From Multifurca ochricompacta (taxonomy: Eukaryota > Basidiomycota > Agaricomycetes > Russulales > Russulaceae), in contig WTXG01000032.1 in NCBI GenBank assembly GCA_022496185.1, forward strand, positions 1 to 64,000: a stretch of 64,000 nucleotides of DNA, given 5' to 3'. Under the pieces are notes generated by a model. The model did no database searches, was not told the origin of the DNA, and was given only the letters and a program-made list of their open reading frames with translations. Of the stretch, positions 2,582-24,840 are shown piece by piece. A program made the translations under genes and the position numbers. Every line of letters starts with the position of its first letter. Within the stretch, counting starts at the first letter, position 1.

Positions 2582-2589
2582 TATATAAG
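2582..2589 (+). promoter_or_regulatory. TATA box of LTR family A copy 1
   Basis: TATATAAG lies 26 bp upstream of the first block of the leader module. A start about 30 bp downstream would fall at the beginning of that block (about 2612-2616). The other family-A LTR has the same box at 6010-6001 on the minus strand. Confidence 0.6.
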
Positions 2590-2614
2590 GGTGTCTGTTT
2601 CGTCTCTTACACTT

Positions 2615-2767
2615 CAGAGTTTCTTCTACCTCTGAAGTGTAAGTCCCTTCTCTTACTTACTACCATACCTTGAGACTAACGCTCTTAGTAGAACTTGTCT
2701 TTGTCTAGGTCAGTAGTATAGTATAACAGAGTTTCTTCTACCTCTGAAGTAACTTGTCTTTGTCTAG
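2615..2767 (+). other. LTR-A leader: intron-bearing copy followed by its spliced copy
   Basis: Block A (2615-2638) is followed by a 53-bp segment (2639-2691) starting GTAAGT, with branch-like GACTAAC at about 2674-2680 and ending TTAGTAG. Block B (2692-2708) follows, then an 18-bp spacer. Then 2727-2767 repeats A+B, 41 of 41 bases, without the 53-bp segment. The second copy is exactly what splicing of the first would give. Block A also forms the arms of an inverted repeat (ACACTTCAGAG ... CTCTGAAGTGT). The repeat and splice-like signals are seen directly; actual splicing is inferred. Confidence 0.8.
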
Positions 2768-2899
2768 CTTAACCCGCTAACCTTACAGTCAGTATGCTGC
2801 GCACATGCCTGTTTCACAATCGCAGCCATTGAAGGCACAGAAAATGTTTATTGCGGCCATTAAAGGCACAGAGTGTGTATTGCAGCCATAAAGGCACAA

Positions 2900-5764: not shown

Positions 5765-5769
5765 AGCTT

Positions 5770-6275
5770 TGTTGAACAGGCATGAGGCGCAGCATACTGA
5801 CTGTAAGGTGTTAGCGGGTTAGGCTAGACAAAGAAAGTTACTTCAGAGGTTTAGAAGAACTCTGTATTAACTATACTACTGACCTAGACAAAGAAAGTTC
5901 TATATAAGAAATGTTAGTCTAATAGTAAAGTAGATAGTAAAGAGGGACTTACACTTCAGAGGTTTAGAAGAACTCTGAAGTGGAAGAGACGAAACAGACA
6001 CCCTTATATACCCCAAGGGATGGTCTGTGCACACTGGGAATAAGTCCACAGGTGCCAGACAAAGTCCAAACGATAAACATGAGGGCATAAGGCCATTGGC
6101 TACAACAGAAATCACATGTTACATGGTGCATCAGTCAGCTACTGTGGAATGTGAGAAAGAAAGTAATAATGATAATGTAAAAAGTCCAAAACTCCGGAAT
6201 CTAATCTAATCCACAAAGCAGCTAATCTAATCACCTGATGCCTGAAGCATCACCAAACATCTTCTGTGTTCAACA
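5770..6275 (-). mobile_element. Solo LTR, family A, copy 2
   Basis: A 506-bp LTR has perfectly inverted termini TGTTGAAC/GTTCAACA and is flanked by an exact 5-bp target duplication AGCTT (5765-5769 and 6276-6280). It matches 2317-2818 in opposite orientation. The TATA box (6010-6001) and leader module show that it is transcribed leftward. No internal region remains, hence a solo LTR. Confidence 0.88.
5824..5977 (-). other. LTR-A leader: intron-bearing copy followed by its spliced copy
   Basis: Read on the minus strand: block A (5977-5953), a 53-bp segment (5952-5900) starting GTAAGT, carrying GACTAAC and ending ATATAG, then block B (5899-5884). After a 19-bp spacer, A+B recurs without the segment (5864-5824), 41 of 41 bases. 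The intron-like part has diverged strongly from that in 2639-2691 except at its donor, branch site and AG. The block sequences differ from those of copy 1 but are identical to each other within this LTR. Confidence 0.8.
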
Positions 6276-6959
6276 AGCTTCAGTCTGTTTGATGTGCTTT
6301 TGGCACTGCAGCTGAGCCTGATCCTCACTTAACAGCCCTAGGGGATTAGCTCCCTTTGGCTGACTCGTCCCATCTCCCTCTGTGCTTGGTTATAGCACCA
6401 AACTCTATTCTACTCCGAAGCTTGACAGTAGCCTAGAGCCTAGCCTTATTGTGCTAGGCTCCTGGCTGAGGTAATGGACCTGCGCTGACCTGTGCACGTT
6501 GCACACGAAACACCCAGCTGAGCATAACACTCTAAAATACATTCTAGACTATTGTTAGACTATCCTGGTAATTACATATTGTTCCATCTATTGACACAGT
6601 GTCCACAAGTATCTACAGGGTCTGTGCTGCATAGGGCAGTTCTGTAAATGCATAATGCATGCAAAGTGCAGGGTGGACTGCATCGGTCTGGCTGCTCTCC
6701 TGACTGCAAGGGTCAGATCTTGAGTAAACATGCATGTGAGGCATTCTGGGCAGCTTTACTAATGGGATACATCATAAGGAATATAGTAAGGCTATTAAAC
6801 AACAATAAAGACAAAGTATATGACTGTGGCCCTGGTGCATGTGAGCTCGCACAATGGAACATCTCACCTGTGCACTTGGGCCCATGTGGCTGGCACTTGT
6901 CTCAAAACTTGATTTCAAAAAAAGGAAAAAAAAAAAACTACTAGTTCTATGTTGTAAAA
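6276..6959. other. No gene recognised
   Basis: Unassigned DNA between two LTR-derived segments. Short open frames only, none with recognisable composition. Confidence 0.4.
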
Positions 6960-7116: not shown

Positions 7117-7405
7117 ACTATTGATTAGACACAATCCTTCTGAATCTTGGTTACTATAAGCACACTCATTTACAGTATTTAAAGGACACTTTTACTGTAC
7201 AGTTCACTTCAGTTCTGACCATCATAACTGAAGTGAGTATTTTGTTATCTTATCTTTACCTATGTAGCTAATGCATACTAGTTACAACTACCATTCTAGG
7301 TAAAGACTAATATTATTAGTTCTGACCATCATAACTGAATTACAACTACCATTCTAGGTAGTTTGATTTATCTAACCTCAGGCTGCATTCATTAAGATCT
7401 TGTAC
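7117..7405 (+). mobile_element. LTR family B copy, truncated U3
   Basis: Contains the family words ACACAATCCTT and TTGGTTACTATA, a TATA-like TATTTAAAG (7176-7184), the leader module and the 3' end CTAACCTCAGGCTGC...TTCATTA shared with 24433-24840. The 5' end is lost against the GGCC-rich repeat. Confidence 0.65.
7211..7360 (+). other. LTR-B leader: intron-bearing copy followed by its spliced copy
   Basis: Block A (7211-7232), then a 49-bp segment (7233-7281) starting GTGAGT, with GCTAAT as branch-like site and ending CATACTAG, then block B (7282-7302). After 15 bp, A+B recurs without the segment at 7318-7360, 43 of 43 bases. The arms CACTTCAGTT and AACTGAAGTG form a stem around block A. This is the same architecture as in family A with different sequence. 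Confidence 0.8.
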
Positions 7406-12625: not shown

Positions 12626-12895
12626 AGAGAATGGTAGTGAGAACTAGTGTGGGTTAGATAAAGATATGATAACTAGATACTCACTTCAGTTTAGTTAGTC
12701 TAAACTGAAGTGAACTGCACAGCAAATGTGTCCTTAAATACTGTAAAGGAGTGTGTTATAGTAACCAAAGCAATGAAGGATTGTGTCTAGTCAGCTAAGC
12801 TAGTGAAGCATTCACAGAAAAGTAAAACAAAGTCCAAAACTGCACAGCTCGTCCATCAGCAGTGCACGAGTTAGCGATGATCGGTCGTTATTGAT
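12626..12895 (-). mobile_element. LTR family B fragment
   Basis: Minus-strand relative of 7702-7880 and 7117-7300: GACACAATCCTT, TTGGTTACTATA and CAGTATTTAAGGACA, then a 13-bp perfect stem CACTTCAGTTTAG/CTAAACTGAAGTG. A 41-bp GTGAGT...ACTAG segment with TCTAACC follows. Sequence after that diverges, so the second (spliced-form) block is missing here. Confidence 0.6.
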
Positions 12896-24432: not shown

Positions 24433-24840
24433 TGTTGAGCCAGTAACGGATCAGAGTTGGCCGGACCGGATCAGAGGTGACCGGAGTTGCCGGTGCAAGA
24501 TGGAGTTAAGTGGACATTGTAATATACTTACTGACATTCCACTCGTTTATTATGATTACTTATGATTAAGATACAATCCTTTATGACCATAGCACAGCAC
24601 ACTCTTTACAGTATTTAAGGACATTATTTCTGTAGTGTACACTTCAGTTTTGACCATTCATAACTGAAGTGAGTATTTACTTAGATTATCTTTACCGCGC
24701 GTATAGCTAACATTACTCGAGTAGTTATCTTGCTACCCGTTTAAGTAAAGACTAATTAATGTATAGTTTTGACCATTCATAACTGAATTATCTTGCTACC
24801 CGTTTAGGTAGCGCTTGTCTAACCTCAGCTGCGTTCATTA
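24433..24840 (+). mobile_element. Solo LTR, family B, nested in LTR C
   Basis: A 407-408 bp LTR runs from TGTTGAGCC to TTCATT(A), flanked by ACCCTT (24427-24432 and 24840-24845). This is a 6-bp or, if the last A belongs to the LTR, 5-bp target duplication. The empty site is preserved in copy 2 of LTR C at about 23846-23866 (TGTATGTACCCTTATATACT), which proves the insertion boundaries. It contains a TATA-like TATTTAAG (24612-24619) and the full leader module. It is the best preserved family-B copy. Confidence 0.88.
24646..24810 (+). other. LTR-B leader: intron-bearing copy followed by its spliced copy
   Basis: Block A (24646-24668), a 56-bp segment (24669-24724) starting GTGAGT, with AGCTAACAT as branch-like site and ending CGAGTAG, then block B (24725-24743). 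After 21 bp, A+B recurs without the segment (24765-24806), 42 of 42 bases; similarity continues three more bases after one mismatch. The arms CACTTCAGTT/AACTGAAGTG pair around block A. Confidence 0.8.

Follow-up and report, generated by a model that had tools for sequence, protein, structure and literature searches.

LTRs of several retrotransposon families in the genome of Multifurca ochricompacta carry a leader in which two short exons (A1 and B1) flank an intron-like segment (intron 1) and are followed, after a short spacer, by a fused copy of themselves that lacks exactly this segment (hereafter the pad). The pad follows the exons of its own LTR, including shifts of the intron's 3′ border, and seems to be made anew from spliced RNA in every round of retrotransposition. 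We consider it probable that these are self-restoring LTR introns, in which intron 1 and a second intron formed by spacer and pad are both spliced in the 5′ LTR and regenerated via the pad in the 3′ LTR.

Results

Layout of the leader

The arrangement is found in full in copy 1, a solo LTR within the 64-kb stretch of DNA analyzed here (the window), with ATCGC on either flank (2312–2316 and 2819–2823; Table 1). The preliminary description of this LTR had recorded a block A, a 53-nt segment, and a block B, followed 18 nt on by an exact A+B fusion, and had placed a donor, a branch-like site, and an acceptor at the exact borders of the missing piece; both observations are confirmed, with 41 of 41 bases identical (2615–2767) and the splice-type signals bordering 2639–2691. 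The left edge of exon A lies at 2615, or at 2616 if a C that matches by chance is discounted. Since exon B1 ends in CTAG, its copy in the pad can act as an acceptor. An acceptor-like stretch, CTAAC..CAG, lies directly after the pad (2768–2788) and is conserved 3′ of the pad in families A–C; it was not seen in families D and E.

A scan of both strands of the window that did not require GT or AG edges identified four such arrangements, two in family A and two with other leaders, and a GT–AG register is present in all four. Applied to one strand of each of 20 first-order Markov sequences of 64 kb, the same scan returned no arrangement. An additional family-B-like leader on the minus strand (12628–12785) is truncated and did not parse, and a tRNA scan of the window identified no genes. 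A primer-binding site also occurs on the minus strand at 2908–2922, where the LTR end before it resembles that of L102, an LTR type (family F) without the intron and pad arrangement; the copy-1 solo LTR lies about 85 bp downstream of this site, apparently inside that element.

Table 1. Features of the LTR leaders in the 64-kb window
Feature	Position	Strand	Remarks
Family-A solo LTR, copy 1 (TGTTGAAC...TTTCACA)	2317–2818 (502 bp)	+	TG..CA ends
TATA box, copy 1 (TATATAAGG)	2582–2590	+	starting A of exon A1 34 nt below
Exon A1, copy 1 (AGAG...GAAGT)	2616–2638	+	putative RNA start
Intron 1, copy 1 (53 nt)	2639–2691	+	GTAAGT donor, GACTAAC branch-like site, TAG acceptor
Exon B1, copy 1	2692–2708	+	pyrimidine-rich, 3′ end CTAG
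Proposed intron 2, copy 1 (spacer and landing pad)	2709–2767	+	starts GT, ends CTAG
Spacer, copy 1 (GTCAGTAGTATAGTATAA)	2709–2726 (18 nt)	+	
Proposed landing pad, copy 1	2727–2767	+	A1+B1 fused, 41/41 bases exact
U5 (remainder of LTR), copy 1	2768–2818	+	acceptor-like CTAAC..CAG, then TCAGTATG... to LTR end
Family-A LTR, copy 2	5770–6275	−	AGCTT at 5765–5769 and 6276–6280
Arrangement in copy 2	5824–5977	−	exact pad; border-free scan
Family-B LTR leader, same arrangement	7211–7360	+	border-free scan
Family-B leader, exons and intron 1	A1 7211–7232; intron 1 7233–7281; B1 7282–7299	+	
Family-B leader, proposed intron 2	7300–7357	+	pad 7318–7357
Family-B′ LTR leader, same arrangement	24646–24806	+	border-free scan

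Identity of the elements

Family A belongs to Ty1/copia: one element (L101) encodes Retrotran_gag_2, zf-CCHC, gag_pre-integrs, and rve domains, followed 3′ by RVT_2, spread over several separate reading frames. Thirteen family-A LTR pairs were recognized by position; the two LTRs of a pair differ by 0–7 mismatches in about 480 sites, and GGTTA directly follows the 5′ LTR in all 13. Target duplications were matched by script in five of these pairs and by reading of the flanks in two more (L101 and L093/L077); they are swapped in two pairs (C601) and have no match in four. The two C601 elements (L007/L071 and L008/L073) stand in opposite orientation with their duplications (CAGAT and ACATC) exchanged; an inversion in which the two elements recombined would have this outcome. 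Both of their 5′ LTRs share a change that is missing from both 3′ LTRs.

Directly 3′ of the 5′ LTR of L101 lies a primer-binding site, GGTTATGGGCCCTGG, which would correspond to the anticodon region of an initiator tRNA. This 15-mer has 362 exact matches genome-wide (a control pattern has none) and no match in viral contigs. LTRs of families B, B′, C, and E abut the same site; families B–E are known here from their leaders alone.

Splice signals of intron 1

Family-A loci were picked from the 53.8-Mb genome for their resemblance to intron-bearing copies (two of the searches each had about 1,800 candidates, of which the best 40 were kept), giving 91 pieces with one unbroken blast match through the leader and 84 after removal of duplicates. 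All 84 leaders have the intron and pad arrangement; because the demand for an unbroken match drops intronless forms (at least L023), this count is not a frequency. The donor is GTAAGT in 82 copies, GTAAAT in one, and GTGAGT in one; a CTRAY motif occurs within the last 25 nt of the intron in all 84, and all 84 introns end in TAG. Family-A introns differ from one another by a mean of 11.7 edits (1,500 sampled pairs), and the splice signals stay.

The leader parser required GT or GC and AG, whereas the border-free scan and a register test did not. In the register test (shifts up to 6), 71 of the 74 exact family-A pads fit a single register and three fit two, and GT–AG is among the fitting registers in all 74. 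Deletions with borders unrelated to GT and AG, the contrary case raised in the preliminary description, were looked for by both approaches and not seen. Intron 1 has the signals of a spliceosomal intron, and these suggest that it is removed from RNA.

The pad follows the exons of its own LTR

The pad is exactly the A1+B1 of its own LTR in 74 of the 84 family-A copies; eight of the inexact pads differ by one base, one by two, and one by a length change. These copies comprise 35 haplotypes. When pads were shuffled among them 10,000 times, a procedure that ignores kinship of copies, exact matches averaged 9.8 with a maximum of 19, and the mean edit distance between exons and pad is 0.14 within a copy versus 4.2 across copies. 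The agreement extends to the exon junction itself, of which family A has 14 types (e.g., GAAGT|AAC, |TAAC, |TAAAC, |CTAAC, |ATAAC, and |ACTAC): the junction in the pad equals that of the copy's own exons in 81 of 84, and the other three show one T/C change. In families B and B′ the pad is exact in 34 of 35 copies (eight haplotypes); in family D it follows the exons in L145 and L146 and departs from them once in L147; and in family E it is exact in L140 and one base off in each of L143 and L144. The earlier proposal that the second copy came from a spliced RNA is strongly supported by pads that hold their own LTR's spliced exons and follow shifts of the acceptor.

Two simpler readings were rejected. 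A tandem duplication does not account for a second copy that lacks exactly the GT..AG segment and follows the acceptor, and an assembly error is incompatible with more than 100 copies across many contigs.

Distribution among LTR families

Among family-B and B′ LTRs, also picked by similarity to intron-bearing copies, the arrangement is present in all 35 leaders that parsed. A further 23 blast rows did not parse. Of these, 17 are pad pieces of parsed copies, and two stem from a single intronless LTR in L067, which is also the L155 copy; the remaining four are a 3′ piece in L020 and three pieces in the window. The tail of exon A occurs in exactly two copies per leader throughout (84 in family A, 35 in families B and B′).

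A less selected sample, since it was not picked by leader, was obtained from the primer-binding sites: the first listed sites were taken, those already in hand skipped, and the 400 nt upstream read for 40 of the 362. The full arrangement lies upstream of 29 (families A, B, B′, and C, and one family-D LTR, L112, seemingly nested in another LTR). Three sites (L104, L117, and L120) have other sequence upstream and keep spacer and pad; one (L132, family B) lacks exactly spacer and pad; one (L118, family C) is intronless; one (L140) is of the one-intron type of family E; and five (L102, L108, L134, L138, and L114) show no such duplication in the 400 nt read. In the family-A LTR L104 (1–415), unrelated or other LTR sequence begins near the intron-1 acceptor, and in L120 and L122 (1–415) just 5′ of the intron-1 donor; either nesting at a favored insertion site or chimerism would account for these three.

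The arrangement extends to families C and D, with a one-intron version in family E. Families B, B′, and C resemble one another, and families A–C share short motifs near the start site. Seven places match the family-E query in full, and the three that were read (L140, L143, and L144) all have spacer and pad; six other family-E relatives that were read (L142, L148, L149, L150, L151, and L154) are intronless. The family-E intron may be a recent gain or may often be lost.

A second intron formed by spacer and pad

The spacer begins with GTCAGT in 80 family-A copies and GTGTGT in four. The pad ends in TAG in 82 of 84, the other two having a point change and a length change, and a GT–AG register for the proposed intron 2 is present in 82 copies and absent from two. 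A GT next to B1 and a pad that ends in TAG or CAG recur in each of the families A–E (B–E by reading). Most junction types, though not every one, have a candidate branch site (AAC, TAAC, CTAAC, or ATAAC-like) at the pad junction, without a uniform motif. In family E the sole intron runs GTTAGT...CTGCAG, and its final 24 nt copy exon 1.

Splicing of intron 1 alone would give a strong-stop cDNA of the order A-B-spacer-A-B-U5, and its landing on the pad would yield three units. None of the leaders that parsed (84 of family A, 35 of families B and B′, and 29 from primer sites) has three units. With both introns out, the cDNA would be A-B-U5, and landing on the pad would restore exactly the observed order. 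We infer that the arrangement is stable only if spacer and pad are also removed as a second intron. A rather unlikely alternative is that only intron 1 is spliced, the GT of the spacer being incidental, and that the extra spacer+A+B unit is then lost through template switching or recombination between repeats, which leaves two units. This would produce the same concerted evolution from a single splice reaction, and reverse transcriptase is generally known to jump between direct repeats; however, beyond the lack of three-unit LTRs, it leaves unexplained both the GT after B1 with the TAG or CAG pad end in five leader families and family E, which is without intron 1.

Two other splice patterns were rejected. 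A splice from A1 directly into the A2/B2 boundary would introduce an extra T and would fail to keep B1 equal to B2. Another acceptor-like site lies further down U5 in families A–C; a template form that used it would delete the conserved stretch after the pad, which is unseen in families D and E. The CTAAC..CAG stretch, if used with the second donor, would be deleted in the next generation, yet it is conserved in families A–C.

In families B and C, GTAG usually stands directly 3′ of the pad; it is missing exactly from three family-B copies (one of which, L021, was read) and from L129 of family C. These losses fit use of the second of the tandem acceptors CTAG|GTAG|, and slippage could do likewise.

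LTRs that have lost an intron

Genome-wide counts with family-B patterns (up to two mismatches) identified 136 LTRs with intron 1 and 36 in which A is joined straight to B after U3; 22 of these joins have no mismatch, two have one, and 12 have two, the last belonging to a related family. The corresponding counts for intron 2 are 128 with B1 followed by spacer and eight with B1 joined straight to U5 (four exact, four with one or two mismatches; one, L132, was read). Three of the 36 A–B joins were read (L155, L156, and L157), and all are intronless. L156 and L155 lie 4.7 kb apart in the same orientation and are identical over 86 nt; because a primer-binding site follows L156 and none follows L155, they are taken to be the 5′ and 3′ LTRs of one element, and the loss from both points to an event at or before integration. 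Intronless LTRs are also present in family A (L023) and family C (L118). Intronless LTRs and those that lack only intron 2 could also stem from slippage or recombination between repeats, the latter at least where a single LTR is concerned.

Age of the pad

In the 13 position-matched family-A pairs, the two LTRs differ from each other at 30 of 6236 sites (0.48%) and the pads differ from their exons at 6 of 1010 (0.59%; one length-change copy left out). The five pairs with a script-matched target duplication give 1 of 408 for pad versus exons and 10 of 2398 for LTR versus LTR, and all family-A copies together give 10 of 3300 for pad versus exons. The similarity of the two rates, which rest on few differences, suggests that the pad is about as young as the insertion. 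In the pair L003/L072, which has no matching duplication, a difference between pad and exons is common to both LTRs. As the pad both tracks its own exons and ages like paired LTRs, each retrotransposition apparently writes it afresh from spliced RNA.

The same identity could have arisen from one ancient capture of a spliced leader, kept up afterwards by DNA gene conversion or selection, and close direct repeats are generally prone to conversion. We regard this as very unlikely: in several families, and with the intron left in place, a conversion tract would need to span exons A and B that are separated by about 50 nt in one copy but contiguous in the other; the junction follows the current acceptor; and the similarity of pad–exon and LTR–LTR differences, few as these are, points to resetting at integration.

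Start site and inverted repeat

Exon and pad begin to match at a base 34 nt below TATATA in all 81 family-A copies that have this motif (it is absent in 3 of 84), and 33–35 nt below TATTTAAA, TATTTAAG, CATAAAAG, or TATATAAGG in one copy each of families B, B′, C, D, and E. The pad's left edge would then coincide with the presumed RNA start, which is what a strong-stop cDNA requires.

Families A–D have an inverted repeat whose left arm straddles the start site and whose right arm lies at the donor of intron 1; in family E the left arm is wholly in U3. The local stem with U3 is predicted at −15 to −25 kcal/mol, as compared with −0.5 to −5 for RNA beginning at the exon (one copy per family). Folding predictions give the donor a lower accessibility in the 3′ than in the 5′ context in 76 of 84 family-A, 34 of 34 family-B, 8 of 8 family-B′, 3 of 3 family-C, and 4 of 4 family-D copies (one of the last with only 10 nt of upstream input and three with about 24); family E shows the opposite in 3 of 3. 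Predicted accessibility in family A is low in both contexts (means of 0.26 for 5′ and 0.10 for 3′), and the gap is only 0.02 in family C, small in B′, and virtually nil for the second donor. The intronless family-E relatives that were read keep the inverted repeat, so it has another role, at least in family E. As a hypothesis with mixed folding support, the hairpin might hide the intron-1 donor only in the 3′ LTR. That the self-restoring system works through such a U3-arm hairpin, with one and the same donor used in the 5′ LTR but not in the 3′ LTR, is a possibility that we advance tentatively.

In every family folded, the repeat lies across or beside the start site, as a promoter, RNA-structure, or polyadenylation role of the duplication without any tie to splicing or strand transfer might have it, but such a role predicts neither the exact loss of a GT..AG segment with a branch motif (CTRAY, 84/84) nor junctions that co-vary with the acceptor, and we consider it extremely improbable.

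Discussion

A proposed cycle

We propose an LTR of the order U3–A1–intron 1–B1–[spacer–A2B2 pad]–U5, in which the bracketed part is intron 2. Transcription would begin at the first base of A1, as its position below the TATA box suggests. RNA from the 5′ LTR would then lose both introns, giving A-B-U5-PBS; splicing at this step is suggested by the splice signals and by a pad that equals the spliced product. A tRNA fragment would prime a minus-strand strong-stop cDNA with the complement of A-B at its end, as in the standard copia cycle. In the 3′ LTR the introns would be kept, and the contiguous A2B2 pad could pair with the strong-stop cDNA, whose extension would copy spacer, B1, intron 1, A1, and U3. 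The new LTR would read U3-A1-i1-B1-spacer-[A1B1]-U5, and its pad would be a new copy of the spliced exons of the parent; renewal of the pad in each cycle would be seen as the concerted evolution described above. Landing on A1 instead would yield an intronless LTR, and such LTRs were found. LTRs that lack only the second intron are likewise an expected failure of the cycle, and these too occur. Family E would be the minimal form, with one intron whose 3′ end copies exon 1. Transcription start, splicing, polyadenylation, landing on the pad with strand transfer, and a silent 3′ LTR are all proposed here from sequence features.

The preliminary description had mentioned in passing that an intronless copy could serve as a landing site for spliced strong-stop cDNA. 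This idea has become the main explanation, with the addition that a second intron is needed.

If the proposed cycle is correct, spliced RNA, processed and exported, is reverse-transcribed in several LTR families of one genome and the introns are nonetheless kept indefinitely; these elements appear to solve the problem of intron loss by sequence alone. The genome would also hold a record of splicing, as each pad would state its parent's choice of donor and acceptor in a form readable from DNA. Why an LTR element should want introns, whether for export, translation, or escape from silencing, would become testable, and the cycle predicts a signal by which the cell treats two identical LTRs in one RNA differently.

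Comparison with known systems

Family A is like Ty1/copia elements primed by half tRNA-iMet in its gag-integrase-RVT_2 order, 5-bp target duplications, and primer-binding site after the LTR. Drosophila copia and yeast Ty5 are Ty1/copia elements of this priming type. We know of no such element with an intron inside R or a pre-spliced copy of its leader. The foamy virus LTR has, to our knowledge, neither an acceptor nor a spliced pad. Foamy viruses are alike in having a splice donor inside R, which a review places in the R region of the LTR (PMC3185757). The part of a review of retroviral RNA processing that was available (PMC9143442) holds nothing on the arrangement described here. A literature search, with most subscription papers outside its reach, returned no description of an intron-bearing, pad-bearing LTR of such layout.

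In Ogre and EVADE, unspliced RNA carries the intron on. These elements, the latter an Arabidopsis Ty1/copia element, are intron-bearing exceptions in which splicing makes subgenomic RNAs, according to a review of plant LTR elements (PMC12786077). They are alike in having natural introns and different in that here the intron lies in the LTR and would be restored despite a spliced template.

Introns are expected to be lost once spliced RNA is reverse-transcribed, and retrotransposition was first shown in this way. An intron-marked Ty was used to prove the RNA intermediate, the intron being lost in new copies, as the same review recounts (PMC12786077). That system represents one-way intron loss, which the present arrangement appears to prevent.
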